From: Mucilaginibacter rubeus
GTDB taxonomy: Bacteria > Bacteroidota > Bacteroidia > Sphingobacteriales > Sphingobacteriaceae
Assembly: GCF_014643835.1 (NCBI RefSeq)
Contig: NZ_BMKD01000001.1
Location: 1,567,558 to 1,631,557, forward strand
Direction: 5' to 3'
Length of the DNA: 64,000 nucleotides
Every line of letters begins with the position of its first letter. The first letter of the stretch is position 1. Made by a program: the position numbers and the translations under genes. Shown here in pieces: positions 28,312-63,687 of this stretch. Under the pieces are notes generated by a model. That model had not been told where the DNA came from. It was given only the letters and a program-made list of their open reading frames with translations, and did not search any database.

Positions 28312-29979
28312 TTAACAAATATTAGTACCGTTGATAGTATAAAGCTGTTTATAATACTCATTTGCCATCCGGTTACTGTCAAAGAGAGGGAATATATCCT
28401 GCATGCTGCGCCTAATTATTTCAACCCATTTATCCGGATGATCGTAATACAGGGGAATGACTGTTTTTTGCAGCAAATTGTACAAGTTATGCGCATCGGT
28501 TTCATCCTGTTGAAATTTATGCTCACTAATTTCAGTATTAGGTATAACAAAACCGTTCACTCCATCCACAACAAATTCCGGAAACCAGCCATCAGGAATC
28601 GAAACATTAACACATCCGTTCATTGCCGCCGACATCCCGCTCGTACCTGAAGCTTCGTGGGTCAGCCGCGGCGTGTTGAGCCAGACGTCTGCCCCTTGTT
28701 TAAGTAATCGTGATAAACGCAATTCATAACCGACTAAAATCGCGCAGTTTGGGTAATCCTTACATAAGTTTACGATCTTATTAAAACTGGCTATCGCATC
28801 ATAATCCATTGGATAAGGCTTTCCTGCCCATATCATTTGGATCGGCATTTTATTGTTAGTTAGAAGTTGGTGAAAAAAGTCCATATCATGCAATAGCAAT
28901 TCCGGCCTTTTGTACCCGGCAAACCTTTTCGCAAAAACAATGGTGAGCACTTCAGGATCGAGGAGAACACCACATTGGTCCGCTACCTCGTCAAAAAGTG
29001 CACGTTTACCTGCCTTTTTCCTTTCCACCAGCTTTTGCATCTGATTAGTTTCCAATGCCGCATACATTTCCTTGTCTGCCCAATAAGAATAGCTCTGGGC
29101 GTTGGTTATAGAAGTAAGTTCACAAATGCCGTTATTTCCATTCCATATTCCCTGTAGCGTGTTTAAATGCATTTTTGACACAGCATTGGCTTTGCCGGAG
29201 AACCTAAACGCAGTTAAGGTATGATCCATAACGTCGCCCTGACAACCCGCTATTTCCTTCACTTCATCTATTGGAATATCCCCCCAAAACCCCATTTTAT
29301 TAAGCAGGAACAAATCAGACCGTTGGTTGCCGCCAGGCTCGGGTGTATGGTTAGTGAAAACCAGTCTTCTTTTTACTTCCTCAACGGACTTATATTTTTT
29401 ATATAAATAAAATGCGATGGGTAAGGCATGCGATTCGTTCAGATGATAAATATCTGGTTGGAAATTGATTGCTTCTAATAAGCGTGCCCCGCCTTCACCC
29501 AACAATATCGCAGCAGCAGTCCCCGTTTCAGGATTACTGTCATAAAGCTTATGTGAAATGGTTTTAGCCAAATAATCATTCTCCGGCAGATCTGTTGTCA
29601 GGAAAAACAGAGGAGCCGTTTTAAAAATTTCAGGCTTCAGGTAAAACGCGGTAACCCAAACATCGTGGCCGGATACCTTAATAGTAAATTTAATGCCGGT
29701 ATCAATGAGGAAGTGATATATTTTTTCCTGGAAGAGTACCTCCATGGTTTCATCACCCTTTCTTCCCTGGTTATAATAACCATATTTCCACAAGATTCCG
29801 ATACCTATAACGTTCTGCCTGAGTTCATAGGCGCTCCTCATAAAAGAGCCTGCAAGATAGCCGAGGCCACCTGAGTAGGTTTTAAGGGGCTGATGGACGG
29901 CATATTCCATGCAAAGATAAGCGACCGGCATTTTGTATTCCGGGTTTATTGGGTAAGGATGCTGAAAGGAGAAGCTCAT
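28312..29979 (-). CDS. glgP: Alpha-glucan phosphorylase family protein (GT35-like), short form
   Basis: A 555-residue cytoplasmic protein of the short alpha-glucan phosphorylase family (TIGR02094 type). Visible motifs: MPVAYLCMEYAVHQPLKTYSGGLGYLAG (in pieces) at the N-terminus, LGEGGARLLEAINFQPDIYHLNESHA, VFTNHTPEPGGNQ, and the C-terminal FAKRFAGYKRPELL, MIWAGKP and RLTHEASGTSGMSAAMNG. Active phosphorylases use pyridoxal phosphate bound to the Lys of GTSGMK; here that position is Ser, so phosphorolysis is in doubt. By family it should act on glycogen or maltodextrin. Phosphoketolase lies in the same island, and the upstream region has an FNR/CRP-like dyad at 30114-30127. Confidence 0.8.
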   Translation of the reverse strand: MSFSFQHPYPINPEYKMPVAYLCMEYAVHQPLKTYSGGLGYLAGSFMRSAYELRQNVIGIGILWKYGYYNQGRKGDETMEVLFQEKIYHFLIDTGIKFTIKVSGHDVWVTAFYLKPEIFKTAPLFFLTTDLPENDYLAKTISHKLYDSNPETGTAAAILLGEGGARLLEAINFQPDIYHLNESHALPIAFYLYKKYKSVEEVKRRLVFTNHTPEPGGNQRSDLFLLNKMGFWGDIPIDEVKEIAGCQGDVMDHTLTAFRFSGKANAVSKMHLNTLQGIWNGNNGICELTSITNAQSYSYWADKEMYAALETNQMQKLVERKKAGKRALFDEVADQCGVLLDPEVLTIVFAKRFAGYKRPELLLHDMDFFHQLLTNNKMPIQMIWAGKPYPMDYDAIASFNKIVNLCKDYPNCAILVGYELRLSRLLKQGADVWLNTPRLTHEASGTSGMSAAMNGCVNVSIPDGWFPEFVVDGVNGFVIPNTEISEHKFQQDETDAHNLYNLLQKTVIPLYYDHPDKWVEIIRRSMQDIFPLFDSNRMANEYYKQLYTINGTNIC

Positions 29980-30077
29980 ATGATTTAAAAAAAAGACCCG
30001 TAGCTATTTTAAAGCTGACGAGTATATTAGTATTATAGACTATTTTGATTTCTGTTTTTCACAAGTTGTGATGAATG

Positions 30078-30127
30078 TTTTTTCAAATGTTGGTGTTTAT
30101 CTGCTAACCGGGAATGACACGGATCAG
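30078..30127 (-). promoter_or_regulatory. FNR/CRP-like site and -7 box upstream of glgP-like gene
   Basis: Dyad ATGAC-acgg-ATCAG at 30114-30127. On the minus strand AACATTTG (one mismatch to TAnnTTTG) at 30091-30084 predicts a start near 30078, about 42 bp from the dyad centre, the class-II spacing. Confidence 0.45.
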
Positions 30128-30437
30128 GGTATTATATGACAGTACGCACAAAACACTCAAATTCAAACGATGGATTAAGAGCCAAATTTGAAACCGGCCC
30201 GCAATTGACTTTAATAAGTGACCTCACTCCTACATACTTTAAAACAGAAAACCGCTTTTAATATTTCCGTTTACAAAATTCTTTCACAATGATACCCTTT
30301 CCGTGTAAGTACTTTCGTCATTCCCGTGTTTTCCAGTCTGAATATGAAAAAAGGACCAAATGCGGCTGCGAAGACCTTCGGGAGCTCATTTTGAGCCTAT
30401 CGCGCATATTAATAAATGATTAAAACTTAATAATCAT

Positions 30438-30486
30438 ATGATCTGCGTCAAAAACGATTGTTTATTAATTGTTACTTTTGTATAGT
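30438..30486 (+). promoter_or_regulatory. FNR/CRP-like site and -7 box of the RND efflux operon
   Basis: Dyad ATGAT-ctgc-GTCAA at 30438-30451 and an exact TAnnTTTG box (TACTTTTG, 30473-30480). The predicted start near 30486 is 41.5 bp from the dyad centre. This would place transcription after the ATG at 30458, favouring the TTG at 30488 or a later codon as the start of the first gene. Confidence 0.5.
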
Positions 30487-30871
30487 TTTGAAAAAGTTCA
30501 CGGCCATATTGCTTTTAACAACCTTCCTGTTCTCAACAACTGAACTCCACCAGTTGCTGAAATTGCCTGTGGTTTTTGAACACTTTGCCGAACACCGGAA
30601 GGAAAACAAGAGCATTTCATTCCTGCAATTTCTGGACATGCATTACATGCATGGCAGCCCGAGGGATAAAGACTACAGCGAGGATATGAAGCTGCCCTTC
30701 AAAACAGCAGATAATTGCACAGCGACGATATCACCCGTGCTGGTTCCTCAATTATTCCAGCCACTCGTCCCTCCCCTGGTATTCTCAACGAAAACGAAGT
30801 TACATGCCTTCGATCAGTCGTTTAACCACTCAACTTATTTATCCAGCATTTGGCAGCCGCCAAAATCCTAA
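30458..30871 (+). CDS. Small exported protein preceding CzcA/CusA (HYC_CC_PP-like family)
   Basis: A protein of 127-137 residues with an N-terminal signal (KKFTAILLLTTFLFSTTELHQ) and the pattern LLKLPVVFEHFAEHRKENK, then FLQFLDMHYMHG and DMKLPFKTADNC (in pieces). This is the small conserved Bacteroidota protein regularly encoded just before CzcA/CusA efflux genes. The family name refers to His/Cys/Pro-rich motifs that are weak here. It is probably periplasmic and may help metal efflux; its role is unproven. The ATG at 30458 lies upstream of the predicted transcription start, so TTG at 30488, directly before KKFTAIL, is the better candidate. Ninety-three bases separate it from the RND gene. 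Confidence 0.65.
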   Translation: MFINCYFCIVLKKFTAILLLTTFLFSTTELHQLLKLPVVFEHFAEHRKENKSISFLQFLDMHYMHGSPRDKDYSEDMKLPFKTADNCTATISPVLVPQLFQPLVPPLVFSTKTKLHAFDQSFNHSTYLSSIWQPPKS

Positions 30872-30964
30872 TTAGCAGTCATTTCTATGTTATTTACAGC
30901 GCTTAGCCTGGCTATTCCTGCTATGCGCTGCTTTTTGAATTGCTAATTTTCAAGATCTTATTTT

Positions 30965-35317: not shown

Positions 35318-35321
35318 AAAT

Positions 35322-36879: not shown

Positions 36880-36890
36880 ATTAAAGTCCG

Positions 36891-36924
36891 GAAACAGAAA
36901 ATGCCTGTTGGCATTTTCTGTTTC
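36891..36924. terminator. Strong hairpin after the efflux operon
   Basis: Fifteen-base-pair perfect stem GAAACAGAAAATGCC/GGCATTTTCTGTTTC with a TGTT loop, twelve bases after the last stop. It lacks a long T run, but its A- and T-rich arms could serve both this operon and the convergent phosphoketolase gene. Confidence 0.7.
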
Positions 36925-37122
36925 ACCCGGCCCCGTTGTCGTAATAGGATAAATTGCTAAGTACTGCAGGTCGGTTTTTGCAGTGTGGCTTTTGGGGTAC
37001 AGGGAATTACATTATGTCCAGATCTGCATATTTATTGAATCAGGATCCGCAATAAACCCCTGGTTATCATAGTGATTAGATTAAGCATACGTGCAACTTC
37101 TGGCCTTCGAAAATTTCACCTT

Positions 37123-39510
37123 TCAAGCTTTCCACCGCCAATTTCTGATTTCGGGCATATCCTCACCATTAACATTGATGTATTGTTTGTGCTCAACCAA
37201 TTTGTCCATTAGGTTTTGTTTGAGATATAAGCCTTTACTGCCCAAATGCGGCAATCGATCGATTACGTCCATTACGAGATGAAACCTATCCATTTCGTTA
37301 AGCACGGTCATGTCAAAGGATGTCGTTATTGTGCCTTCTTCTTTGTAACCTCTTACATGAATATTGTTATTATTGGTCCTATTATAAGTAAGCCTGTGAA
37401 TAAGCCATGGATAGCCATGAAAAGCGAAGATCACGGGTTTATTGACAGTAAAAAGTGCATCAAAATCATGGTCGTTCAAGCCATGTGGATGGCTGGATTG
37501 CCTTTCCAGCTTTAGCAAGTCGACAACGTTTACAACCCTTATCTTTAAATCAGGAAAATGTTCACGTAATATGGATACAGCAGCCAGCGTTTCTAATGTA
37601 GGCACATCACCGCAGCAGGCCATCACAATATCTGGCTCACAGTCCTGATCATTACTTGCCCAGTCCCATACCCCAATGCCTCTTGAACAATGAACCACAG
37701 CCTCATCCATACTTAACCATTGAGGAGAAGGGTGCTTCCCTGCTACCATAACATTTACATAATGTTTGCTACCCAGGCAATGAGCCATAACCGACAAAAG
37801 GCAGTTAGAATCCGGCGGCAAATAAACCCTCACAATTTCTGATTTCTTATTAATGACGTGATCAATGAATCCCGGATCCTGATGGGTAAAACCATTATGG
37901 TCCTGGCGCCAAACGGTTGAAGTAAGCAGAATATTCAGGGATGCTATCTTTCTCCGCCATGGTATCTCCCGCGTCATTTTCAACCATTTGGCGTGCTGGT
38001 TAAACATCGAATCGACGATATGTATAAATGCCTCATAACAATTGAATAGCCCGTGCCTGCCGGTTAGCAAATACCCTTCGAGCCAACCTTCGCACTGATG
38101 TTCGCTGAGCATCTCCATTACCCTCCCCTCTGGGGCAAGGTATTCATCATTTACATTAATATCAGCGTTCCACTGACGGCTGGTAGTTTCAAAAATTGCC
38201 TCTAACTTATTTGAGACAGTCTCATCGGGACCAAAAACTCTGAAATTTTGAGGATTAAGAGATATTACATCCCGTAAGAAACGACCGGTGACGTGCACAT
38301 CACCTTCGCCTGTGATACCCGGATGATCAACATTAACTGCATATTTCTGAAAATCAGGAAGCACCAACTCTCTAAGCAAAAGCCCCCCATTTGTGTGCGC
38401 ATTTGCTCCCATCCTTCGATTGCCTTTTGGTGCTATTTCCGCAATTTCCTTCTTTAAGCAACCGTTAGTATCGAATAACTCTCCGGGCCGGTAACTCTTC
38501 ATCCAGCTTTCGAGCATTTGCAAATGACTCTCCGGGCTTGACCCGGAAACGGTAAGCGGTATTTGATGAGAGCGAAATGTGCCCTCTATCTGCTTTCCAT
38601 CAACAACCTTTGGCCCGGTCCATCCTTTTGGTGAATTTAATATGATCATTGGCCATTTTGGTCGCTCCTGCCCTGGATGCTCTATGGCATTGTATTTTAT
38701 TTGCTTTAGAAAGTGTACTGCTTGCTCTAAGGCCGCAGCCATAGCCTGGTGCATAATTGCAGGGTCCGAACCTTCGACAAATAAAGGAAAGTAGCCATAA
38801 CCATGAAATAATTGTTCGAGCTCGATGTGGGGAATGCGGGCCAAAACCGTTGGATTTGAAATCTTATAGCCGTTCAAATGCAAAATTGGTAATACAGCGC
38901 CATCGGTAATCGGGTTCAGGAACTTATTAGAATGCCAGGCAGTTGCCAGCGGACCGGTTTCGGCTTCTCCATCGCCCACAACACAAGCAGCAATGAGGTC
39001 CGGATTATCCAGCACAGCGCCAAATGCATGGCTTAACGAGTATCCAAGTTCGCCCCCTTCATGCATTGACCCCGGTGTTTGGGGCGAGGCGTGACTGGAT
39101 ACACCACCTGGAAATGAGAACCGTTTAAACAAATTTTTCATACCCGCGCGGTCCTGGCTAACTTCCGGATAAACTTCGCTGTAGGTTCCTTCCAGGTATG
39201 TACCTGCTGCTACGGCAGGTCCGCCGTGCCCGGGTCCTGAAATGTAAAGCATATTTAAATCATATCTGTTAATGATCCGGTTAAGGTGAGTATAAATAAA
39301 ATTCTGCCCGGGGGTGGTACCCCAGTGGCCTAACTGCATTTTCTTGAGATGTTCTATTTTTAATGGCTCTTCCAAAAGCGGATTATCGCAAAGATAAAGC
39401 TGGCCAACAGACAAATAATTAGCTGCGCGCCAATAAGCATCTAATTTCTCCAAACATTCACCGGTTAACGGCGCGTTATCGATTGATGTGATATCAGTTA
39501 TCATTGTCAT
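37123..39510 (-). CDS. xfp: Phosphoketolase
   Basis: A 795-residue thiamine-diphosphate enzyme that cleaves xylulose-5-phosphate (and often fructose-6-phosphate) with phosphate to acetyl-phosphate and a shorter sugar phosphate. Length and motifs are normal: [36 protein letters not shown] (in pieces), the TDP-binding [55 protein letters not shown] and [16 protein letters not shown]. Acetyl-phosphate can be turned into ATP by acetate kinase, so the enzyme offers an energy-yielding route under low oxygen. No acetate kinase is encoded in the window. The predicted promoter lies far upstream, giving a leader of about 160 bases. Confidence 0.96.
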
Positions 39511-39668: not shown

Positions 39669-39718
39669 TATCAACAAATATCGAATGACTGGGATTCTCA
39701 AAACATGACCGCCATCAC
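39669..39718 (-). promoter_or_regulatory. FNR/CRP-like site and -7 box of phosphoketolase gene
   Basis: Dyad ATGAC-cgcc-ATCAC at 39705-39718; GATATTTG on the minus strand at 39682-39675 differs at one base from TAnnTTTG. The predicted start near 39669 is about 42 bp from the dyad centre and about 159 bases before the start codon. Confidence 0.45.
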
Positions 39719-39744
39719 TAATTCCGATGAGTAACAGCATTTAG

Positions 39745-40407: not shown

Positions 40408-40839
40408 TCAGTCAATGTTAATTTTCTTTTTCTCTGCAACAGCAGGGGTTGTTTTACGAATATCAATAGTCAGCAACCCGTTCTTGTAATTTGCTTGAAT
40501 GTGGTCATTATCCACATCTCCGGGTAAGTTGAAGCTTCGGGTAAAGGAACTGCTTGAAAATTCTTTGCGGGTGTAATTCTCTTTTTCCTCATTATGTTCC
40601 TCGCTGGTTTCGGCACTGATAGTCAGCAAACCATTTTCAATACCGATATTGAAATCATCTTTCTTGAAACCCGGGGCGGCAACTTCAAGTTCATAATTCT
40701 CTTTCTTATCACGGATGTTTACCGCCGGCAATAGCTCCCGATTGAAGAAAGGATGATTAAAGAAATTGTCGTTGTTCCAGAAATCCTCCATCATTGAACG
40801 CAATGAGGGGATGTTGTTTGATTTTACTAATGTTGACAT
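40408..40839 (-). CDS. Hsp20-family small heat-shock protein
   Basis: A 143-residue cytoplasmic chaperone of the alpha-crystallin family: short N-terminal region, a core domain from about residue 35 (LLPAVNIRDKKENYELEVAA, then PGFKKDDFNIGIENGLLTIS) and the conserved NYKNGLLTIDI near the C-terminus. The I-x-I/V tail motif appears only as INID. It holds unfolding proteins in an ATP-independent way. The gene is divergent from a universal stress gene; its upstream region has a dyad at 40896-40909. Confidence 0.95.
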   Translation of the reverse strand: MSTLVKSNNIPSLRSMMEDFWNNDNFFNHPFFNRELLPAVNIRDKKENYELEVAAPGFKKDDFNIGIENGLLTISAETSEEHNEEKENYTRKEFSSSSFTRSFNLPGDVDNDHIQANYKNGLLTIDIRKTTPAVAEKKKINID

Positions 40840-40859: not shown

Positions 40860-40909
40860 ATGGATCAAAATTCGGAATGGATTATTCAACCGCACATGAC
40901 CGTGCTCAC
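40860..40909 (-). promoter_or_regulatory. FNR/CRP-like site and -7 box of hsp20
   Basis: Dyad ATGAC-cgtg-CTCAC at 40896-40909 and GAATTTTG on the minus strand at 40873-40866 (one mismatch to TAnnTTTG). The predicted start near 40860 is about 42 bp from the dyad centre. Confidence 0.45.
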
Positions 40910-40930
40910 AAAGAGCTATGATTGTGAGCA
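40903..40930. repeat. Inverted repeat in the hsp20/usp divergent region
   Basis: Eight-base arms TGCTCACA (40903-40910) and TGTGAGCA (40923-40930) around 12 bases, overlapping the hsp20-side dyad. The arms contain the CRP-like TGTGA/TCACA core. Confidence 0.5.
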
Positions 40931-40980
40931 TTAAATGCAAGGCTGCGTTTAACCATTCATGTTTAAAGTCAAATTCAGTC

Positions 40981-41030
40981 ATGATCATGGTCATTTATAA
41001 TGAGGACTGAGATGTGAATATTTGTGTAAT
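40981..41030 (+). promoter_or_regulatory. FNR/CRP-like site and -7 box of usp gene at 41064
   Basis: Dyad ATGAT-catg-GTCAT at 40981-40994 (one mismatch between the five-base arms) and AATATTTG at 41017-41024, one mismatch to TAnnTTTG. The predicted start near 41030 is about 42 bp from the dyad centre. Confidence 0.5.
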
Positions 41031-41063: not shown

Positions 41064-41924
41064 ATGAAAACTATCCTCGCACTCACCGATTTTTCCGATA
41101 ATTCATCAAACGCTGCAAATTTGGCTGTACTACTGGCAGGTAAATTGCATGCCAACGTACTTTTGTATCATAACTATGAAACCATAGCGGTAGCGTCCAC
41201 TTTTTCTGGAGGTCCCTACGTAGACGAAGAGTTTTTTTTAGCCACTGCCGAAATAAAGAAAAAACTTGATCATCAATTAAACACACTGCAATACATTGCA
41301 GATGGGATTGATAAAACCGAACGAAAGCCAACACTTAAAGGCTTAAGCGGTGACGGTAACCTGAAAGATAATCTCAAACAAATACTTGATGAAAACCAAA
41401 TTGTGTTTATAACGATGGGGGCCCCATCAGGTACCTCTATCGAACACTTGTTTTTCGGCAGCGAAACCAATAAAATAATTCAACATACACAACGCCCGGT
41501 GTTGGTTGTACCAGCCAGTACCAGTGTTACCGATATTAAAAAGGTGGTATTCGCTACTACCTTCGATGAAGCGGATATAGCGCCACTCCATTTCTTAATT
41601 GGCCTGGGAAAGATCTTTAAGTTCAGTATTGAAGTGGTACATGTAAACCAGCCAGTAAAAGATAAGAAACAGCAAATTGAAAAGGAAGGAGCTTTCCAAA
41701 AACATATTGCCAAATTCGGGTACGACGATATTTCGTTTAAGGACCTCGGAGGCCGCGAAGTTGCGGACCGGCTACACCGTCATTGCGCTGAAGAAAAACC
41801 TGATCTCCTCGCGGTAGTTCATCACCAACATTCTTTTTTCAGGCGCTATTTTGAACATAGCACTACCAAAGAAGCTCTTAGCGACCTAAAATTGCCGCTG
41901 TTCATTTTCCCGACTATTATTTAA
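41064..41924 (+). CDS. Universal stress protein, tandem-domain type
   Basis: A 286-residue protein with two Usp domains. The first begins MKTILALTDFSDNSSNAANL and holds VFITMGAPSG and the loop HLFFGSETNKIIQHTQRPVLVVP; the second begins IKKVVFATTFDEADIAPL and ends DLLAVVHHQHSFFRRYF. The start is ATG 41064, since upstream residues do not belong to the family. The order of the GAPSG loop and FGSETN only approximates the ATP-binding G-2x-G-9x-G(S/T), so nucleotide binding is uncertain. It resembles the Usp at 60279 most (shared GGPxVxEEF segment). It is divergent from hsp20, with an FNR/CRP-like dyad upstream. Confidence 0.93.
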   Translation: MKTILALTDFSDNSSNAANLAVLLAGKLHANVLLYHNYETIAVASTFSGGPYVDEEFFLATAEIKKKLDHQLNTLQYIADGIDKTERKPTLKGLSGDGNLKDNLKQILDENQIVFITMGAPSGTSIEHLFFGSETNKIIQHTQRPVLVVPASTSVTDIKKVVFATTFDEADIAPLHFLIGLGKIFKFSIEVVHVNQPVKDKKQQIEKEGAFQKHIAKFGYDDISFKDLGGREVADRLHRHCAEEKPDLLAVVHHQHSFFRRYFEHSTTKEALSDLKLPLFIFPTII

Positions 41925-41947
41925 ACCCGGTTCAATTTATTAAAAGC

Positions 41948-41989
41948 GGTCCATTCAAAAATGGGTACAATCCATACTTTGAATGGACC
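41948..41989. terminator. Hairpin after usp gene
   Basis: Twelve-base-pair perfect stem GGTCCATTCAAA/TTTGAATGGACC with an 18-base loop, 24 bases after the usp stop. It could end both this gene and the convergent kinase remnant. Confidence 0.65.
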
Positions 41990-42014
41990 ATTAATATCAG
42001 TTACATGAAGCGGT

Positions 42015-42183
42015 TTATTCAACCGGAAATTTCATTTCGAAAAAGGCGCCATCTCTAAGGCTTGTATCCAAACAATTCGTCAGCAGCTGGATTGGCATAA
42101 ATGATCTGTCCGGTTTTATCAATTATAATAATACCATCTATCACATGATGTATAACAACTTTTAGGAAATTCAGATCATTCAT
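42015..42183 (-). pseudogene. Remnant of a PAS-domain sensor histidine kinase (both ends kept, middle deleted)
   Basis: From ATG 42183 the frame reads MNDLNFLKVVIHHVIDGIII, then IDKTGQIIYANPAADELFGY, a good N-terminal half of a PAS domain, and stops at 42055. In another frame across the same point the sequence reads SLRDGAFFEMKFPVE and a stop (42015-42017), the usual extreme C-terminus of a histidine-kinase ATPase domain. The simplest reading is a large internal, frame-breaking deletion of a PAS kinase. It starts 28 bases after the LOG-family gene and would have been the last gene of that unit. The lost kinase could have been a redox or oxygen sensor; that is a guess. Confidence 0.75.
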
Positions 42184-42211
42184 ATTGATAGCGATATTGA
42201 TAATAAAACTA

Positions 42212-43091: not shown

Positions 43092-44456
43092 TCACTTTGT
43101 TTTATTGACGGGTTTAAGGCCATAAAGCTCATTTTCGACCTTGTTGTCAAGGTTATATATGTCTTCATATTTTACAATCTGGCCATCCACAATAGCAGTA
43201 GTGATATAAGTAATCTTGATTGGGACAGGCTTTTTAAGTTGAAAAACTTTAATTTCCCGATCCATCAGGGCCCGGTGCATGGATTTTATGTCTGTTTTAT
43301 TTCCGGCTGTTGCTAATAACAATTTGGCAAGTTCTTCTCCCCGCTCAATTCTTATCGCCCCGTTACTCGTCGCTCTTTTTTGCTTCCTGAATAAATTCTT
43401 ATCAGATAAACCCAACAACTCTATACCTGCCTTATTGCCGGGCATGAAATATATATAATTGCCATTTTTTTGATTGCCTGTTTTTTGTTTAGGAAACAGA
43501 TTATACGGAATCATTTTGTCTCTCTGATTAGTTTTGGGATTTACAGCGCCTGTTCCGGTAGCAAAATCTGTAAGCGTACTTACCATTAAGGGTGTTGGTG
43601 TAGCAGCAGCCCCTACCACTATTTTGAAATTAAACGTTGTATCCGGCAGGACTAATTTTAATGTATAAGTTGGAATATTAATCTGGATATAAGTACTATC
43701 GTTTATTTCGGCCCACCGTAACCGCTCCATATTCACAGCAATTTTTCTCACATCGGCTTCCGGCGTTTCATAGCAGTCTCCCTCATAAAGCCCTTTAATC
43801 AAATGTAACTGATGTTGAAATATTGCGTACTCTTTGTTTAAAGGTTGCACTTTTACTACTGCATCCATAAAAGCAGGTAATTTGAGCGCATTAGTTAATA
43901 TTTCTTCGCTGTTAAAGCCGTTAATGGTTGCCCTATCAATTTTCGCAGGCGGATAATATGGGTTCAGTTTGCCGAAATGCAGGTTATTCATAAAAGCGAG
44001 CATAGCGTCGGTGAGGAATATCTCAAACCGGGCCTTTTGCTTGTTGTTTACTTTACCGGGTTGTTCGAGTATGGTGTGCAAGGTGGTATACTGCAGCTCT
44101 TTAGGATGATAATCTTCGTGCCTTAAACCAAATTGCAACACACAATCAATCAGGAGCATGGCAGCCCATGTTTTATTTTGATCTTTTTGTTCCACTGTCC
44201 ATACCGGAGCAAAAGCCCGTTTTTCGTAAAACCGCTTAGCTGAAACTGGAAAATACAAGCCATTATTCAATGCCTTATCATTTAATTGCCCGGCGATCTG
44301 TGCTGTGATCGAAGTATCAGTTGTATTGCGAATAATGTTTTTTCCTGGTGCATAGCTTTTTGACAAGGCTCCTGCCGGCATAAAAAAAATGCACAAAACA
44401 AACAGCCAAATAAGGGTTTGTTTACTGGCGGCAAAGCTTATTTCAACTATTTTCAT
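43092..44456 (-). CDS. L,D-transpeptidase (YcbB-like) homologue lacking catalytic residues
   Basis: A 454-residue exported protein (signal about 12-32). It keeps the layout of large L,D-transpeptidases: an N-terminal scaffold domain (FYEKRAFAPVWT; FLTDAMLAFMNNLHFGKLNP) and a YkuD-like domain beginning with VNMERLRWAEINDSTYIQIN. The active-site segment differs: the expected HDTPSK region reads YFMPGNKAGIELLG, with no His, and the SSGCIR motif reads ATSNGAIRIE, with Ala in place of the nucleophilic Cys. It therefore cannot make peptidoglycan cross-links by the known chemistry. It may bind peptidoglycan or act as a regulator. An FNR/CRP-like dyad lies upstream, and two decayed genes follow downstream. 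Confidence 0.8.
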   Translation of the reverse strand: MKIVEISFAASKQTLIWLFVLCIFFMPAGALSKSYAPGKNIIRNTTDTSITAQIAGQLNDKALNNGLYFPVSAKRFYEKRAFAPVWTVEQKDQNKTWAAMLLIDCVLQFGLRHEDYHPKELQYTTLHTILEQPGKVNNKQKARFEIFLTDAMLAFMNNLHFGKLNPYYPPAKIDRATINGFNSEEILTNALKLPAFMDAVVKVQPLNKEYAIFQHQLHLIKGLYEGDCYETPEADVRKIAVNMERLRWAEINDSTYIQINIPTYTLKLVLPDTTFNFKIVVGAAATPTPLMVSTLTDFATGTGAVNPKTNQRDKMIPYNLFPKQKTGNQKNGNYIYFMPGNKAGIELLGLSDKNLFRKQKRATSNGAIRIERGEELAKLLLATAGNKTDIKSMHRALMDREIKVFQLKKPVPIKITYITTAIVDGQIVKYEDIYNLDNKVENELYGLKPVNKTK

Positions 44457-44468
44457 AATTTCTTTTTT

Positions 44469-44518
44469 ATGACGTAAAAATGCAATGCCTGGTAGGTTAA
44501 ATTAGTGACGACGGTCAT
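44469..44518 (-). promoter_or_regulatory. FNR/CRP-like site upstream of the L,D-transpeptidase homologue
   Basis: Dyad GTGAC-gacg-GTCAT at 44505-44518 (TGAC/GTCA core perfect). On the minus strand CATTTTTA at 44482-44475 fits the -7 position with two mismatches. The predicted start near 44469 is about 42 bp from the dyad centre. Confidence 0.4.
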
Positions 44519-44565
44519 TTATCCAACTGATCCTGAACACTCAAAACAGTTTCAACTTTGTAAAC

Positions 44566-45384
44566 TCAATATGGAAAGACAAGCACCGGGATGCCTACTT
44601 GCACAGGAACGGAAATATCGCTCCCCTCGGTTCTCAACTGCTCACAATGAAATCGGTGATGTACAACCGCCAGCAGATCGGCATGCATATTATGTATCAT
44701 AACATCAACAGCCCGTGACATATCACGTTCTTTTGTATTACTAAAAAACAGCCTCTCATAGCCGATTTTTTTACTTATCTCGTCGCTAAAGAGTGTTAGC
44801 GCGTAATTTTGTTCCAAATGGGGCAAACCCTTTGCCGAAATATGAGCGAGTAACAGATCTGCCTGAAAGGCCTGGGCCAAAGAAGCAAGATGTTTCAAAA
44901 CATTTAACCGGCAATATCGTAAATCAGCTGTGTAAACCAAGCGCTCAAAACCACCATCAAATTTCACAGGAACAAGCATCACCGGGCAAGATATCCGGTT
45001 TAAAACCGCCTGCACCTTAACGTCCCGATTAAATGGTGCCGATTCCGGCAACCCTTTTATAACCATCCAAACGCAATTTTTATTGATGTAAGCAATCAAT
45101 TGCGCTTCCGTATCACTTGACACTTCAAGTTCTTCAATTAGCGGCATATGTTCACCTTCTTTTAAGGACAAATTGGCCGGTTGGCCCCGTAACGGACCGG
45201 GTATGTAACCATCAGCGGCAACGTACCCCGCCAATTGCAATGCTTTAGAAAACGATGGTTGTTTTACCGCATATATCCGGGCCAAAACTAAATTAGCTCC
45301 AATGCGCTTTGCTATGTTGAAGGCAAGATGCGTGGCATTTGTAGCAGACGCAGAACCATCGTCAATTACCAGGATCGTTTTCAT
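44566..45384 (-). CDS. Universal stress protein, tandem-domain type
   Basis: A 272-residue Usp protein: first domain MKTILVIDDGSASATNATHL to CPVMLVPVKFD, second domain from ERLVYTADLRYCRLNVLKHL to DLLAVVHHRFHCEQL. It is more diverged than the other three: the loop equivalent to the nucleotide-binding stretch reads KGLPESAPFNRDVKV, without the Gly-rich pattern, so ATP binding is unlikely. It has the clearest control site of the window, a perfect FNR box about 70 bases upstream. It precedes the L,D-transpeptidase homologue in the same direction, but that gene has its own dyad. Confidence 0.9.
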   Translation of the reverse strand: MKTILVIDDGSASATNATHLAFNIAKRIGANLVLARIYAVKQPSFSKALQLAGYVAADGYIPGPLRGQPANLSLKEGEHMPLIEELEVSSDTEAQLIAYINKNCVWMVIKGLPESAPFNRDVKVQAVLNRISCPVMLVPVKFDGGFERLVYTADLRYCRLNVLKHLASLAQAFQADLLLAHISAKGLPHLEQNYALTLFSDEISKKIGYERLFFSNTKERDMSRAVDVMIHNMHADLLAVVHHRFHCEQLRTEGSDISVPVQVGIPVLVFPY

Positions 45385-45415: not shown

Positions 45416-45465
45416 CGATAGCAAAATTAGGCATAGGCTCATTTTATCCACTTGATGTAAATCAA
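45416..45465 (-). promoter_or_regulatory. Perfect FNR-type box with exact -7 element upstream of usp
   Basis: TTGAT-gtaa-ATCAA at 45452-45465 is the full FNR/Anr consensus. TAATTTTG on the minus strand (45429-45422) matches TAnnTTTG exactly. The predicted start near 45417 is 41.5 bp from the dyad centre, the canonical class-II activator position. Confidence 0.75.
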
Positions 45466-45679
45466 CGATTTACGTGATTTTCCTCATACATTTTGCAGGC
45501 CTTATAAAACGACTTTTTCATGGTAGCCCTTGAAATGGCTAAAAACATTAATATTCCGTTGCTGATATTAAATGCGAAATAGAATTTAACATGCACATAA
45601 CTGTATATGGGTATAATATCATCTTAAGCTACGATAGCGATTTGCAGACAGCTATTACTATGTACGTCGGACAAAGAGG

Positions 45680-48245: not shown

Positions 48246-48317
48246 TCTAAACAAATTGAGCTATTGCGAATTAAAAACTGAATGCTTCTGATCAGTCCGA
48301 AAAATGATTCAGGTCAC
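48246..48317 (-). promoter_or_regulatory. FNR/CRP-like site upstream of mgtA-like gene
   Basis: Dyad ATGAT-tcag-GTCAC at 48304-48317. A TCAATTTG box on the minus strand (48259-48252, one mismatch) would place the start near 48246, about 64 bp from the dyad centre, near a class-I rather than class-II spacing. Confidence 0.35.
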
Positions 48318-55902: not shown

Positions 55903-56236
55903 AAATTTAAGATCGGGGTATATCAATAAATCTCAACCAACTTAAACAAGCCTCCTAAAGGTAAATCTCTGCGTAAAGCAATTCAGCTTCAGGTGCGTTT
56001 ATTTAATTATTGCAATAGTATCTTTACATTCTGTAGTTTACATGAAATCACGTGTATTTAACAGATTTTAACAGATCGCGAATTATAAAACAAACCTCCC
56101 ACATATAAGGACCTCCTTAAATATCCGCCATTTTCAAATAGTGATATATATCATTTATTTACCTGACGACCAGCATCATAAAAAAATAAAACAACAGCAA
56201 TTTTGTGCTTAACATAAGTAGGTTAAAGCAGAAAAT
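55903..56236. other. Divergent intergenic region, Rieske operon / alcohol dehydrogenase
   Basis: It carries the GTGAT-N4-ATCAT dyad (56141-56154) on the alcohol-dehydrogenase side and otherwise AT-rich sequence with a doubled TAACAGAT. No gene seen. Confidence 0.6.
56141..56154 (+). promoter_or_regulatory. FNR/CRP-like site upstream of alcohol dehydrogenase gene
   Basis: Dyad GTGAT-atat-ATCAT with a perfect TGAT/ATCA core, 82 bases before the start codon. A CAATTTTG box (56198-56205, one mismatch) would put the start near 56211, about 64 bp away, as for the MgtA-like gene. Confidence 0.45.
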
Positions 56237-57274
56237 ATGAAAGCATTAGTTTATCACGGCCCAGGTCAGAAAGCCTGGGAAGAAAAGCCCAAACCGGTAC
56301 TGCTGTCAACAAGCGATGCCATTGTAAAAATCCTGAAAACAACGATTTGCGGTACAGATCTGCACATTATGAAAGGAGATGTTCCTGAAGTTGCCGATGG
56401 CAGGATCATCGGGCACGAAGGCGTGGGTGTGATCGAAGAAGTGGGAACCACTGTCAGTAATTTTAAGCCGGGCGACCACGTGATTATATCCTGTATCACA
56501 TCTTGCGGTAAATGTACCTACTGTAAAAAGGGCATGTATTCTCACTGTACAGATGGCGGTTGGCTATTAGGGCACCTGATTGACGGCACGCAGGCAGAAT
56601 ATGTTCGTATCCCCCATGCAGACAACAGCCTTTTTCTGGTACCCAGCGGTTCTGACGAAGAAGCATTGGTGATGTTAAGTGATATACTGCCTACGGGCTT
56701 TGAATGCGGCGTATTAAACGGCAAAGTACAACCTGGAGATACTATAGCCATAATAGGTGCCGGCCCGATCGGGATTGCCACTTTACTTACCGCACAATTT
56801 TATACACCTGCGGAAATTATCATGATCGATCAGGATGATAACCGGCTCAATGTGGCCAGGAAATTCGGTGCAACACAGATTATTAATAGCCGCAATGAAA
56901 ATACAATTGAAGCGGTAATGAAACTCACCAACCAAACCGGCGTTGATGTGGCGATAGAAGCTGTCGGTATTCCCGAGACATTCGAGCTATGTGAGGCGAT
57001 TATAGCCCCCGGCGGCCGTATCGCCAACATTGGCGTTCATGGAAAAAGTGTCCGTTTACACCTGGAAGACCTGTGGTCGAAAAACATTACTATCACGACC
57101 AGGCTCGTGGACACAGTGACTTCACCAATGTTGTTAAAAACGATACAATCAAAAAAAATAGCGCCCGCCAAACTAATCACACATCGTTTCAGATTAGATC
57201 AGGTGGCAGAAGCATACGATACATTTGGCAATGCAGCCGAAGCGAAAGCGCTGAAAGTTATTTTAAGCTCTTAA
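56237..57274 (+). CDS. Zinc-dependent alcohol dehydrogenase family protein
   Basis: A 345-residue medium-chain dehydrogenase/reductase. The catalytic zinc ligands are Cys in TICGTDLHIMKGD and the His-Glu of GRIIGHEGVGVIEEVG; the structural zinc Cys are in CGKCTYCKKGMYSHC. The Rossmann motif is AIIGAGPIGIATLL. It oxidises or reduces an alcohol/aldehyde with NAD(P); the TDGGWLLGHLIDGTQAEYVR segment resembles the group seen in bacterial oxygen-limitation loci. It forms a unit with the usp gene 59 bases downstream and has an FNR/CRP-like dyad upstream. In an anaerobic programme it would recycle NADH by ethanol formation. Confidence 0.93.
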   Translation: MKALVYHGPGQKAWEEKPKPVLLSTSDAIVKILKTTICGTDLHIMKGDVPEVADGRIIGHEGVGVIEEVGTTVSNFKPGDHVIISCITSCGKCTYCKKGMYSHCTDGGWLLGHLIDGTQAEYVRIPHADNSLFLVPSGSDEEALVMLSDILPTGFECGVLNGKVQPGDTIAIIGAGPIGIATLLTAQFYTPAEIIMIDQDDNRLNVARKFGATQIINSRNENTIEAVMKLTNQTGVDVAIEAVGIPETFELCEAIIAPGGRIANIGVHGKSVRLHLEDLWSKNITITTRLVDTVTSPMLLKTIQSKKIAPAKLITHRFRLDQVAEAYDTFGNAAEAKALKVILSS

Positions 57275-57333: not shown

Positions 57334-58176
57334 ATGGAAAAGATATTAGTTACAACAGATCAATCCGTTAATTCCAAAGCGGCCATCCGTTTTGCGATTA
57401 AACTGGCCAGCCAGCGTAAGGCCGAATTAACCATCCTTCATGTATACCATCTTTTAAAACCCTTCAAATGGACAGACCACGCTTTTGCGGCGTATACCAA
57501 TGAATTCAGAAAAAAAACGACAGAAGAATTGTCATCATTTATTGCAGGCATCTATCGTGATATCGATGAACGCGAAATTAACTACCAATTAGTTTTGGTA
57601 TCCAATATCGATGTAGTTGATGGCATCACAGATTATGCCAGCAGGAACAGTTGTTCCTATATCTGCATCAGTACCCGTGGAGCGGGCACTATCGCAAAAA
57701 TATTCGGCACGCATACCGCAAAATTGATCAGCTGTTCGACTGTGCCTGTTATATGCATACCAAGCACATACCATTTAAAAGAATTGAAACACATCCTGTA
57801 TGCTTCGGATATGACCGACTATGAAAACGAATTAAAAGAAGTTGTCGATTTTGCCAGGCCAATTGGTGCCAGTGTCGAGATGGTACATATCGCCTATCCT
57901 AATGAATTTGCTTTTGACAAAGAGTTGGCTGAAGCCACTTTACAGAAAAAAAATAGTTATAAAATTAGCCTTTTAAACCTGCAAAGAGATGTCAACAATA
58001 ATTTACTGGAAGATATAGATCACGCTGTTAAGATCAGCAAACCGTCCCTTTTGGTCTTATTCACTCATCAGTCCAGATCTATGCTCGAAAAACTATTTTT
58101 CCCTTCTAATGCCACAGAATATTCCTTTTATGGAAAGGTTCCTTTACTCACCTTTAAAAAAAAGGAGGGCAAATAA
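57334..58176 (+). CDS. Universal stress protein, tandem-domain type
   Basis: A 280-residue Usp: first domain MEKILVTTDQSVNSKAAIRF to CSTVPVICIPS, second from LKHILYASDMTDYENELKEV. The loop CISTRGAGTIAKIFGTHTAK is close to the G-2x-G-9x-G(S/T) ATP-binding pattern, so this copy may bind nucleotide, unlike the one at 44566. It follows the alcohol dehydrogenase gene in the same transcription unit. Confidence 0.9.
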   Translation: MEKILVTTDQSVNSKAAIRFAIKLASQRKAELTILHVYHLLKPFKWTDHAFAAYTNEFRKKTTEELSSFIAGIYRDIDEREINYQLVLVSNIDVVDGITDYASRNSCSYICISTRGAGTIAKIFGTHTAKLISCSTVPVICIPSTYHLKELKHILYASDMTDYENELKEVVDFARPIGASVEMVHIAYPNEFAFDKELAEATLQKKNSYKISLLNLQRDVNNNLLEDIDHAVKISKPSLLVLFTHQSRSMLEKLFFPSNATEYSFYGKVPLLTFKKKEGK

Positions 58177-59562: not shown

Positions 59563-59582
59563 CTGACAATAATAATGTCAAA
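59563..59582. repeat. Inverted repeat upstream of AI-2E family gene
   Basis: Arms TGACA and TGTCA around seven bases. The spacing differs from the TGA-N6-TCA dyads, so it is probably not the same factor's site. Confidence 0.3.
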
Positions 59583-59672
59583 AGTAAGGGAGCCGTCGAT
59601 AACCTATAAAAGGTAATGGCATTTACTATATAATAACTCCGTTATGCGTGAGGTTGACGAGTATAACGCTAT

Positions 59673-60152
59673 TCAATCATTATCATTTCTCTGTTTTAAA
59701 GGAGATATCGTATCAGTTCTGATTTCCGAATGCCTGATTTGTCCGCCTAAATACCCAGTCCTAGCAATCAAGCCAAAGCTTATCAAGGATACAGCGAGCA
59801 CTATTAACGCTATACGCCTAACCTGTGATGTATTTTTTAATGTTGCAAAAAGCCCGATCAGGGAAACCCCACCTGTAAGTATTAAAGCGATCAAAGATAC
59901 CAGGGCGAACTCCTCATGATCTTCAATGAGATATTTAGATATTCCTTTTAAATGTTCAATGGTTTCTTCAGCACCCTCGCCTGTTGCATAGGCTATACCG
60001 GCCCCAATTGCTGAGACAATCAAAACATTATAAGCAGCGATTAGTGTACCTTTGTTCCTTTTCCATATCCCATGGATCAGGACAAATGCCCCCAAAGCCG
60101 TACCAACGATAGGCAGGTGGGTGATCAGCAGGTGGATGTGTGTTTGGTTCAT
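59673..60152 (-). CDS. Small conserved membrane protein (DUF2231-like)
   Basis: A 159-residue protein with four spans. MNQTHIHLLITHLPIVGTAL carries three His at the membrane edge, the middle has TGEGAEETIEHLKGIS and IEDHEEFALVS, and the end reads GGQIRHSEIR. The conserved His and Glu suggest heme or metal binding, as in DUF2231 relatives, but this is not shown. Start ATG 60152 (an ATG at 60176 would add eight residues before the conserved start). It is divergent from the usp-ATPase unit and shares the long palindrome between them. Confidence 0.7.
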   Translation of the reverse strand: MNQTHIHLLITHLPIVGTALGAFVLIHGIWKRNKGTLIAAYNVLIVSAIGAGIAYATGEGAEETIEHLKGISKYLIEDHEEFALVSLIALILTGGVSLIGLFATLKNTSQVRRIALIVLAVSLISFGLIARTGYLGGQIRHSEIRTDTISPLKQRNDND

Positions 60153-60210
60153 GACTTTTTTATCAAAGGTGATCAACTAATAGCACTGTTTAAATAGCAG
60201 TAATCAAGCT

Positions 60211-60265
60211 AATAAATGATCTTAATCATTTATTGTCGGGTAATGAACGGATAGCTTTACAATCT
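60211..60265 (+). promoter_or_regulatory. Long palindrome of FNR type and -7 box between divergent genes
   Basis: Perfect 10-bp arms AATAAATGAT and ATCATTTATT around CTTA (60211-60234). For the usp gene on the plus strand TAGCTTTA (60252-60259, one mismatch to TAnnTTTG) predicts a start near 60265, about 42 bp from the centre. On the minus strand the -7 box of the membrane-protein gene is weaker (TATTTAAA). Confidence 0.65.
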
Positions 60266-60278
60266 AAAGAATTACGCC

Positions 60279-61136: not shown

Positions 61137-61170
61137 TCGACTCGTGACTAATTATTAGCTGATCAAATAA

Positions 61171-63687
61171 ATGGCAATAAATAATTTCGATATACAGGGC
61201 CTGAGCGAACAGGAAGTACTTGCGGCGAGATCTAAATACGGAGCGAACAGCCTTTCGTTTAAGAAAGAAAACGGATTTGTTAATGCGTTGATAGGATTGA
61301 CAAAAGAACCGATGGTAATCTTATTGTTGGTTACCTCATGTATTTATTTTATTAGCGGAAAGGCCGGAGACGGTATTTTTTTAGCTTCAGCAATTGTACT
61401 CGTGGCGGGCATATCTTTATATCAGGACTCCAGAAGCCGGAATGCACTCGAAAAATTGAAGGATTTTTCGCAACCCAAATGCAAAGTGATCAGGCACGGA
61501 GAAGTTTTGGAGGTAAAAAAGGAAGAACTTGTTATTGGCGACAGCCTGATGGTAGAGGAAGGCACTTTTATTACTGCTGATGGTGTTATTGAACATTCCA
61601 ATGATTTCTCAATCAACGAAAGCATTCTCACAGGCGAATCCCTGGCTGTTTTTAAAGACAAATCCTCTGCAGACAATCTGATTTTCAGTGGCACAACAGT
61701 AGCAAGCGGACTGGCCATTGCAACCGTAACGGCAATAGGTAATCAAACACGATTAGGTAAAATTGGCGGGAGCCTGGAATCTATAGCGGAAGAAAAAACA
61801 CCCCTGGAAATACAGATCAGCAATTTTGTAAAGAAAATGGTGATCGTGGGAGTAATTGTGTTTCTGACGGTGTGGGGAATAAACTATTTTCATTCGGCAA
61901 ATATCTTAGACAGTCTCCTTAAAGCGCTTACGCTGGCCATGAGTATCCTGCCCGAAGAAATCCCCGTTGCGTTTACCACCTTTATGGCGCTTGGGGCCTG
62001 GCGGCTTATGAAAATTGGCGTCGTTGTTAAGCAAATGAAAACGGTGGAGACTTTGGGCAGCGCATCGGTTATATGCACTGATAAAACCGGCACACTAACC
62101 GAGAATAAGATGAGCCTGGCGAAAGCGTATGTCCTGAAGGAAGATTGCATTTATAATCTTAATGAAAAGCAATTAAACAGCGCAGCAGCAGAGCTAATCG
62201 CGCTTGCCATGTGGGCCAGCGAACCGATCCCTTTTGATCCCATGGAAGTTGCCCTGCACAATGCCTACACCCACACAAATCTGGCAGATGAGCGTCCGGA
62301 TTATAAAATGGTCCACGAATATCCGCTGGGCGGCAAGCCGCCGATGATGACCCACCTTTTTGAAAATAAAAAAGGGAATCGCATTATCGCAGCCAAAGGT
62401 GCGCCTGAAGCATTGATCGGCGTCAGCAACTTAAATCAACCCCAGAAAGAACATGTGACTGCTGCAATAGCTGCTTTGGCTATCGAAGGTTACCGGGTAT
62501 TGGCCGTAGGAGAAGCAAATTTTGTGGGAAGTGATTTCCCTGCTACACAGCAGGAGTTTCATTTTGTATTCAAAGGGCTGGTTGCATTTTATGATCCGCC
62601 CAAGAAAAACATCACTACTGTACTACAGGGCTTTTACAAAGCTGGTATCAAGGTTAAAATCATCACAGGCGATAATGCAGAAACTACCGGTGCTATCGCG
62701 AAGCAAATTGACTTCCGTGGAGCAGACCAATGTATCAGCGGAGACATGCTGATGCAACTGTCAGAACAGGAACTTAGGGAGAATGTGAAGAAAGCCAACA
62801 TTTTTACCCGTATGTTCCCGGATGCCAAGCTAAAGATCATCAATGCTTTAAAAGCCCAAAATGAGATAGTAGCTATGACCGGAGACGGAGTTAACGACGG
62901 CCCCGCGCTGAAAGCGGCGCATATAGGCATTGCGATGGGAAAAAAGGGCACAGAGATAGCGAAGCAGGCTGCCTCATTAATTTTATTGGAGGATGACCTT
63001 TCAAAAATGGTTGATGCTGTAGCCATGGGCCGGCGTATCTACACCAACCTAAAAAAAGCCATACAGTATATTATCTCCATTCACATCCCTATCGTATTAA
63101 CGGTATTTATACCACTGGCCTTAGGTTGGATTTATCCGAATATTTTTTCACCGGTGCATATTATTTTCCTGGAACTGATTATGGGGCCGACTTGTTCGAT
63201 CATTTATGAAAACGAGCCCATAGAAAAGAATGCCATGTTGCAAAAGCCACGTCCGTTCAGTACTACTTTCTTTAATTGGAAAGAGTTGGCGACCAGCATA
63301 GTACAGGGGGCAGCCATCACAATCGGTACACTCACAGTCTACCAATATGCCGTAAGCAAAGCAGCAGATGAACAAGTAACCCGTACCATGGTATTTACCA
63401 GCCTGATATCGGCCAATGTTTTGCTCACCTTAGTAAATCGCTCGTTTTACTACTCGCTGTTTACCACAATCAAATATAAAAATAACCTTGTGCTCCTGGT
63501 TGTCGGGCTCACAATCTTTATATCATCTTCACTGATATACATCCGCCCTTTAGCAGTTTTCTTTGGTTTCAACTCGCTAAATATGAGTGACCTGGTGATC
63601 AGTATTATTATAGGGTTTACCTCCGTCATTTGGTTCGAGCTTTATAAAGCATGGTTACGTAAGGGCTCAGATGTAAAAACCTCGTGA
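61171..63687 (+). CDS. Cation-translocating P-type ATPase of atypical transport motif
   Basis: An 838-residue P2-like ATPase. Standard parts are intact: TGES in ILTGESLAVFK, the phosphorylated Asp304 in CTDKTGTLTENK, the nucleotide-binding region with KGAPEALI, and the hinge TGDGVNDGPALKAA. The ion-site segments are unusual: the TM4 motif is LPEEIPVAF (Ca2+ pumps have PEGLP) and TM6 reads FLELIMGPTCSIIYENEP, without the N-x-x-T/x-D pattern. Ca2+ specificity therefore cannot be assumed. The C-terminal six spans are complete. It is in one unit with a usp gene under an FNR-type palindrome; in Pseudomonas a P-type ATPase is also reported in the Anr regulon. Confidence 0.88.
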   Translation: MAINNFDIQGLSEQEVLAARSKYGANSLSFKKENGFVNALIGLTKEPMVILLLVTSCIYFISGKAGDGIFLASAIVLVAGISLYQDSRSRNALEKLKDFSQPKCKVIRHGEVLEVKKEELVIGDSLMVEEGTFITADGVIEHSNDFSINESILTGESLAVFKDKSSADNLIFSGTTVASGLAIATVTAIGNQTRLGKIGGSLESIAEEKTPLEIQISNFVKKMVIVGVIVFLTVWGINYFHSANILDSLLKALTLAMSILPEEIPVAFTTFMALGAWRLMKIGVVVKQMKTVETLGSASVICTDKTGTLTENKMSLAKAYVLKEDCIYNLNEKQLNSAAAELIALAMWASEPIPFDPMEVALHNAYTHTNLADERPDYKMVHEYPLGGKPPMMTHLFENKKGNRIIAAKGAPEALIGVSNLNQPQKEHVTAAIAALAIEGYRVLAVGEANFVGSDFPATQQEFHFVFKGLVAFYDPPKKNITTVLQGFYKAGIKVKIITGDNAETTGAIAKQIDFRGADQCISGDMLMQLSEQELRENVKKANIFTRMFPDAKLKIINALKAQNEIVAMTGDGVNDGPALKAAHIGIAMGKKGTEIAKQAASLILLEDDLSKMVDAVAMGRRIYTNLKKAIQYIISIHIPIVLTVFIPLALGWIYPNIFSPVHIIFLELIMGPTCSIIYENEPIEKNAMLQKPRPFSTTFFNWKELATSIVQGAAITIGTLTVYQYAVSKAADEQVTRTMVFTSLISANVLLTLVNRSFYYSLFTTIKYKNNLVLLVVGLTIFISSSLIYIRPLAVFFGFNSLNMSDLVISIIIGFTSVIWFELYKAWLRKGSDVKTS

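Follow-up and report, generated by a model that had tools for sequence, protein, structure and literature searches.

A tandem-dyad CRP/FNR-type promoter set in a stress and energy island of Mucilaginibacter rubeus, with a FixL-like kinase and a REC-Crp protein as candidate regulators

We analysed a stretch of 64,000 nucleotides (nt) from Mucilaginibacter rubeus (contig NZ_BMKD01000001.1, positions 1,567,558 to 1,631,557), here called the window, in which an island of stress and energy genes lies behind one type of promoter. The predicted promoter is a composite of a distal dyad TGA-N6-TCA centred at −63.5, a proximal dyad centred at −41.5 and a TAnnTTTG-like box. Pfam matches in the island are XFP, HSP20, DUF308, Usp in three genes (41064, 44566 and 60279), a cation ATPase (45680-48217), a zinc alcohol dehydrogenase (adh) and a phosphorylase-like gene at 28312; the names of the RND genes and of the genes at 57334, 59673 and 61171 are carried over from a preliminary description of this DNA. 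For gene 43092-44456 the Scaffold domain PF20142 was the sole Pfam match (E ≤ 0.001), with no catalytic transpeptidase domain listed, and the protein is possibly a non-catalytic relative of L,D-transpeptidases. The promoters are as follows, with mismatches (mm) in brackets.

30084..30148, minus strand: promoter of the phosphorylase-like gene 28312-29979; distal dyad 30137-30148 (1 mm), proximal dyad 30115-30126 (0 mm), box AACATTTG at 30084-30091.
30439..30480, plus strand: promoter of gene 30491-30871 and the RND genes from 30965; proximal dyad 30439-30450 (0 mm), perfect box TACTTTTG at 30473-30480, 22 nt on; the distal dyad is present only with 3 mm.
39675..39739, minus strand: promoter upstream of xfp 37123-39510; distal dyad 39728-39739 (1 mm), proximal dyad 39706-39717 (0 mm), box GATATTTG at 39675-39682.
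40866..40930, minus strand: promoter of hsp20 40408-40839 (also of the DUF308 gene 39745); distal dyad 40919-40930 (1 mm), proximal dyad 40897-40908 (0 mm), box GAATTTTG at 40866-40873.
40960..41024, plus strand: promoter of usp 41064-41924; distal dyad 40960-40971 (1 mm), proximal dyad 40982-40993 (0 mm), box AATATTTG at 41017-41024.
44475..44539, minus strand: promoter of the L,D-transpeptidase-like Scaffold-domain gene 43092-44456; distal dyad 44528-44539 (1 mm), proximal dyad 44506-44517 (0 mm), box CATTTTTA (2 mm) at 44475-44482.
45422..45486, minus strand: promoter of usp 44566-45384; distal dyad 45475-45486, proximal dyad 45453-45464, box TAATTTTG at 45422-45429; the only site of the window with 0 mm in both dyads and the box.
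48252..48316, minus strand: promoter of the cation ATPase 45680-48217 (mgtA-like); distal dyad 48305-48316 (0 mm), proximal dyad 48283-48294 (1 mm), box TCAATTTG at 48252-48259.
56142..56205, plus strand: promoter of adh 56237-57274 and the usp-like gene 57334-58176; distal dyad 56142-56153 (0 mm), proximal dyad 56164-56175 (1 mm), box CAATTTTG at 56198-56205, 22 nt on.
60164..60259, unstranded: shared divergent promoter; dyads 60195-60206 (2 mm) and 60217-60228 (0 mm).
60252-60259, plus strand: box TAGCTTTA of the divergent promoter, for usp 60279 and the ATPase 61171.
60164-60171, minus strand: box CACCTTTG of the divergent promoter, for the gene 59673-60176, named DUF2231-like in the preliminary description.

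The dyads 60195 and 60217 can act in either direction. For gene 59673-60176, transcription is predicted to begin 17 nt within the listed open reading frame (ORF), so the real start is probably the ATG near 60152.

The preliminary description had reported ten dyads before the genes of the island. All ten exist; nine begin one base after the coordinate given there, and the tenth, placed at 60211, is at 60217. We counted 30 matches of TGA-N6-TCA in the window, 12 of them intergenic and 18 intragenic by the ORF list, where 14.43 ± 3.89 were expected, and none of 100 shuffles reached 30. The observation is stronger than had been noted. A TAnnTTTG-like box (≤1 mismatch) starts 23 nt past the dyad in six of 15 promoter-facing dyad orientations and 22 nt past it in one; in 20,000 within-sequence shuffles, six boxes were never reached at any one offset. 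The histogram of box offsets has a smaller second peak at 45, that is, 23 + 22. Nine of the ten dyads have a box at 22-23 nt with at most two mismatches, which bears out the shared spacing claimed for eight of them, but 48305, one of the nine, is in the wrong register. The dyads at 48305 (mgtA-like) and 56142 (adh-usp) proved to be distal copies, so that their register had to be rejected; their proximal dyads, 48283 and 56164, and the boxes behind these had been missed.

According to an excerpt of PMC9723704, the sigma-A box spans −12 to −5 in Flavobacterium psychrophilum, and a dyad with its box at offset 23 would therefore be centred at −41.5. With boxes at offset 23 or 22 from the dyad, the dyads of the window are predicted to be centred near −41.5 from a likewise predicted sigma-A start, in agreement with the class-II position suggested earlier. 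A distal dyad 22 bp further upstream (centre −63.5), with at most one mismatch in six, accompanies six of the ten first-reported sites (30115, 39706, 40897, 40982, 44506 and 45453).

We scanned the whole window for the composite, allowing spacings of 22 or 23 and requiring one perfect dyad, a box with at most two mismatches and a total of at most four. There were 12 matches, every one with a total of three or fewer and all between 30 and 60.3 kb, whereas a first-order Markov null (200 simulations) predicts 0.085 at a total of ≤3 and 0.52 at ≤4. Eleven precede a gene start and the twelfth (54867) is intragenic; both dyads are within two mismatches in ten of the eleven, the RND site being the exception. 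The scan found no composite site left of position 30,079. The first 28 kb, where we read SusC/SusD-like, FecR-like and ECF-sigma-like genes, are without one, which gives the island an abrupt left boundary at about 30 kb. We conclude that the promoter set is real and strongly supported as a CRP/FNR-type regulon with a tandem promoter, and the composite promoter lends good support to the proposal of the preliminary description that a single CRP/FNR-family activator controls the whole island, here from −41.5. That description foresaw neither the 22-bp tandem architecture nor, instead of plain FNR, a two-component regulator of the REC-Crp kind.

The nearest relative genome compared (G001) has 29% of 31-letter words in common with the window. 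The island is collinear with its contig C27 from 396 kb on, the common genes having about 90-100% protein identity, with some gene gains or losses. Two differences were seen: at 41925-42211 the window is without a PAS kinase that G001 has (C27:423067-424254) beside a LOG-like gene (by reading), and at 36880-37122, between the RND operon and xfp, about 14 kb of G001 with a REC-Crp gene, a kinase gene and usp-like genes are missing. The dyad-N23-TAnnTTTG pattern (≤1 mismatch) has 89 matches in G001 and the reversed control 55, which is the genome-wide enrichment that the preliminary description had proposed to look for. Twenty of the 89 lie within 82 kb of C27 (370-452 kb, about 1.2% of the genome) containing the orthologous island, a stretch picked after the hits were known. 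Pairs of TGA dyads 22 bp apart number ten in 120 kb of C27, two each in contigs C21 and C32, and one in the window. In the window and C27 together the TGA half-site forms 11 pairs at 22 bp, and every other half-site of the form XYZ-N6-reverse complement at most two.

Which protein would bind these sites? Eight genes of G001 are above the Pfam cut-off for the helix-turn-helix family HTH_Crp_2. Four are unfused and four are REC-Crp fusions of about 350 amino acids, with receiver (PF00072), cyclic-nucleotide (cNMP) fold (PF00027) and Crp helix-turn-helix (PF13545) in one protein. The fusions on C21 and C28 stand directly downstream of PAS-domain kinases. For the PAS domain of kinase C21:160031 the best PDB matches are FixL (8js5, E 9.4e-33; 1dp6, E 5.4e-32), and the haem-pocket His and Arg are aligned; in the C28 kinase both FixL haem residues are aligned as well. 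Downstream of the C21 operon we read genes like ldhA and hemN and a cluster resembling cbb3/ccoGHIS. One perfect tandem is found just before the kinase gene of this operon, and a second starts at the REC-Crp stop codon.

Here, we extended the survey to 80 REC-Crp loci (L062-L141; 1.50 Mb), the best 80 of at least 573 relatives found by scanning GTDB contigs with two receiver peptides, a sample which for that reason favours close relatives. Among the matches listed, the closest named ones are M. rigui (78%) and M. agri (75%). One locus (L121), on a contig of 3.1 kb, is titled as an alphaproteobacterial metagenome-assembled genome, which may be a case of misbinning or transfer. In these loci, boxes that follow TGA dyads number 148 at offset 23 and 162 at offset 45 (= 23 + 22), against 6-30 at other offsets; the distance between dyads is 22 bp in 88 cases and any other value in at most eight. 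The control dyad ACT-N6-AGT (484 strand-sites, against 1718 for TGA) has neither peak. A gene start lies from 60 nt before to 300 nt after the predicted transcription start for 189 of 218 sites, with a median of 18 nt after it. The 185 distinct targets, named by our own reading and not by Pfam, include clusters of ldhA (26), Usp (18), kinases (17), ccoN (17), Hsp20 (4) and hemN (4).

By short motifs, the gene directly upstream of REC-Crp is a histidine kinase in 74 of the 80 loci, a gene without such motifs in three, and not listed in three. Both FixL haem residues are aligned in 50 of the 74, several rows aligning loosely, so a FixL-type PAS with predicted haem binding is indicated for C21:160031 and these 50, not for all. 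Receiver residues D10, D53, T83 and K105 are invariant in 28 of 28 fusions. With its Asp/Thr/Lys site and an adjoining kinase, REC-Crp has the features of a two-component response regulator, the two fusions on C27 of G001 excepted. The only cysteine invariant in the 28 proteins is C52 of the receiver, and there is no FNR-type cysteine cluster. The recognition helix is of SR type in 35 and of IR type in 37 of the 72 loci, among the 80, that a regular expression classified. The TGA stop of 25 out of 79 fusion genes doubles as the first half-site of a perfect dyad facing the next gene; thus the coding end and the operator overlap.

We then explored the distribution in 295 genomes of the class. 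Tandem dyads number 939, in 200 genomes, and the reversed pattern 27. The 143 genomes with REC-Crp hold 765 tandems and the 152 without it 174. Splitting by both regulators (cut-off 1e-80 for the fusion and for the unfused FNR-like type that we call A3, a threshold of our choice), the mean is 4.00 tandems for the 102 genomes with REC-Crp only, 8.71 for the 41 with both and 0.56 for the 103 with neither, while the reversed pattern averages 0.04-0.16 over the four groups. In the genus of the window a tandem occurs in 47 of 51 genomes with the fusion and in 4 of 10 without (Fisher p = 6e-4, a value that overstates certainty because the genomes are not phylogenetically independent). Among the tandem-rich genomes in which REC-Crp is absent, we came upon an unfused FNR-like protein that has C-x2-C plus other cysteines; C10, C13, C59 and C112 are kept in all seven A3 rows that were checked, from the 90 genomes counted as FNR-like. 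At three loci (L173, L177 and L178) a tandem lies 6-13 nt past the stop of the unfused FNR-like gene. In loci from six fusion-less genomes (five with A3-type FNR, and G144 without) the box stands at offset 23 on one side in 16 of 18 distinct tandems, locus L218 being left out as a repeat of L212. In a midpoint-rooted tree of the Crp part, a branch with 100/100 support separates 28 fusions from 13 unfused rows, and the seven A3-type rows do not form one clade. Paired dyads track REC-Crp, and also the unfused FNR-like protein, across the 295 genomes.

The promoter architecture and its enrichment, the adjacency of kinases, the intact receiver residues, the FixL-like haem-pocket residues of many kinases and the co-distribution were all computed. 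Based on them, we consider it probable that the island is one regulon for survival at low oxygen (microoxic or anoxic), driven by a FixL-like kinase and REC-Crp. FixL logic is that low oxygen switches the kinase on. Likewise, a histidine kinase with a FixL-like haem PAS would be turned on at low oxygen and would phosphorylate the receiver Asp of REC-Crp, the most likely activator, which joins a phospho-receiver to a cNMP-fold domain and a helix-turn-helix of FNR type. Phosphorylation would permit tandem binding, with two CRP/FNR-type dimers side by side on the TGAYNNNNRTCA dyads at −63.5 and −41.5, 22 bp or about two DNA turns apart. From the class-II position they would activate sigma-A promoters and turn on universal stress proteins, Hsp20, phosphoketolase, and fermentation and transport genes. 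We infer that REC-Crp, not a paralogue, binds the sites of the window, that phosphorylation is the switch, and that oxygen is the signal, with induction when it is low. The oxygen or redox sensing of the preliminary description accords with this by inference, given the FixL-like kinases beside the regulator and the ccoN-like, hemN-like and ldhA-like targets (by reading). For the class as a whole, we lean slightly towards one low-oxygen regulon with a fixed promoter (dyads at −63.5 and −41.5 plus TAnnTTTG) and a swapped sensor, which may be an FNR-like protein with an iron-sulfur-type cysteine cluster, a FixL-like kinase with REC-Crp, or both; the island of the window would be a large instance of the second type.

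Several results weigh against these readings. There is no REC-Crp gene within the 64-kb window, so the regulator had to be taken from G001, where neither of the two C27 fusions, which lie in the island or next to it, directly follows a kinase gene. Of the four unfused Crp-family genes of G001, C27:355421 (helix QENVIR) lies close to the island and two others are rich in cysteine. Both FixL haem residues fail to align in 24 of the 74 upstream kinases. The SR and IR helix classes have near-identical site matrices (from sites selected for good dyads and boxes, so that only positions outside these are independent), and hence protein-DNA covariation gave no link. In the class, the 49 genomes with an FNR-like protein and no fusion average 2.37 tandems, one or more tandems occur in 31 of the 103 genomes that lack both regulators, and 11 of the 143 fusion genomes lack a perfect one; G299, a genome of the same genus in 600 contigs, has 14 tandems and no fusion match. 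Among the ATPase homologue regions (the best 16 of 30 loci), the same promoter type was found in four (L142-L145), G001 included; the other 12 have no good site upstream of the first Met, although some of these stretches resemble coding sequence of neighbours and are not clean negatives. Finally, between the window and G001 changes were counted at 0 of 60 dyad positions, 0 of 60 box positions (not those of the real boxes for 30439, 48305 and 56142), 1 of 60 N6 positions, 10 of 230 spacer positions and 22 of 529 elsewhere. The rate elsewhere predicts about 2.5 changes in N6, and conservation is weak evidence because G001 is so close a relative.

The activator may instead be a plain unfused CRP/FNR protein, such as C27:355421 or the cysteine-rich C28:247711 and C35:58314 of G001, with REC-Crp genes merely lying in similar islands. 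In its favour, unfused FNR-like genes adjoin perfect tandems in fusion-less genomes (at L173, L177 and L178), the box spacing in such genomes is the same (16 of 18), and G001 has as many unfused HTH_Crp_2 genes above the family cut-off as fusions. However, the best match of G001 to the A3-type FNR profile has an E-value of 4e-57, which, judged by E-value alone, falls short of the 1e-80 cut-off; a plain FNR is for that reason not favoured in the lineage of the window. Moreover, the helices of the cysteine-rich pair (ETVFR and ESLFR) are unlike the SR and IR types beside tandem sites, and two perfect tandems abut the kinase/REC-Crp operon on C21. We regard this alternative as unlikely. The same pair (L035 and L037) carries an N-terminal C-x4-C-x2-C-x2-C and may sense metal or redox state for a different regulon.

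Returning to REC-Crp as the preferred activator, it could respond not to oxygen but to a different redox cue, to nitric oxide or to an energy signal, sensed through the PAS kinase or the cNMP-fold domain. Usp, Hsp20 and ATPases respond to many stresses, which would suit such a cue, as would the kinases in which the two haem residues are not both aligned. On the other hand, the C21 kinase PAS has FixL as its best PDB matches, sites lie upstream of ccoN-like, hemN-like and ldhA-like genes (by reading), and in F. psychrophilum the cbb3 oxidase and haem-synthesis enzymes are up at low oxygen, according to an excerpt of PMC9723704. A signal other than oxygen thus seems rather improbable to us. That the dyads and boxes are chance or a codon-use artefact of an AT-rich genome is hardly credible: chance would supply roughly half of the single dyads and 18 of 30 are intragenic, but the dyad excess, the box spacing, the 22-bp peak (88 against at most 8) and the composite scan (12 against 0.085), together with 939 tandems against 27 reversed, reject it for the whole set, and only the single weak sites 30439, 44506 and 60195 could have arisen so.

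The outcome is a promoter grammar that can be searched for, together with a candidate pair of regulators and a list of targets, for oxygen-loss sensing and survival in aerobic Bacteroidota, which in our impression are little studied. If the proposal is true, one promoter logic is served by two oxygen-sensing chemistries, a natural fusion shortens the FixL-FixJ-FixK cascade, and the 22-bp tandem in 200 of 295 genomes is a striking case of two activator dimers at a fixed spacing across a class. Among the open-licence papers listed by our searches, none describes regulation by REC-Crp in Bacteroidota or a tandem promoter of this kind there, which is weak evidence of novelty.

FNR and Anr are [4Fe-4S] oxygen sensors. 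The class-II site at −41.5 and the TGAT...ATCA core are like theirs, as may be the ExxSR-type helix of part of the fusions, and other genomes of the class have an unfused FNR-like protein with the same tandem promoter; unlike them, REC-Crp has a receiver and no cysteine cluster. We take the site core TGAY-N4-RTCA to resemble that of FNR and FixK.

In Myxococcus xanthus, an excerpt of PMC11841059 describes NmpRSTU, a haem-dependent kinase pathway for an oxygen-utilization regulon, whose members include genes for cbb3 oxidase and HemN. The haem-kinase control proposed here is alike, whereas its NtrC-like response regulator and protoglobin sensor (same excerpt) are different. The available part of PMC6127331 reports for Burkholderia cenocepacia the lxa locus, a large Usp-rich cluster with alpha-crystallin that is up at low oxygen, with the CRP-family FixK-like BCAM0049 as its candidate regulator. 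Its gene content is like that of our island, which is known from sequence alone; the phylum and the regulator type differ. The same text names FixLJ/FixK for Burkholderia dolosa, and also the DosR dormancy regulon of Mycobacterium. 

Many Usp genes, Hsp20 and a P-type ATPase are common to our island and the DosR/DosST regulon, and two-component oxygen control would be as well. DosR belongs to the LuxR/NarL type of regulators, and the sensors DosS/T rely on haem GAF domains. In contrast, the output of the regulator proposed here is HTH_Crp_2 and the sensor a FixL-like PAS, although no search aimed at DosR was made.

The FixL-FixJ-FixK system of rhizobia resembles our proposal in its PAS kinase, to whose structures the C21 kinase matches, its FNR-type helix-turn-helix, and its cbb3- and hemN-type targets (by reading). 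It differs in that here the receiver is fused to a Crp-type activator, with no separate FixJ step (as in the four G001 fusions), and that the dyads stand in 22-bp tandems. Since the kinase PAS is like FixL and the receiver is fused to a Crp output, the rhizobial chain would thus be folded into two proteins.

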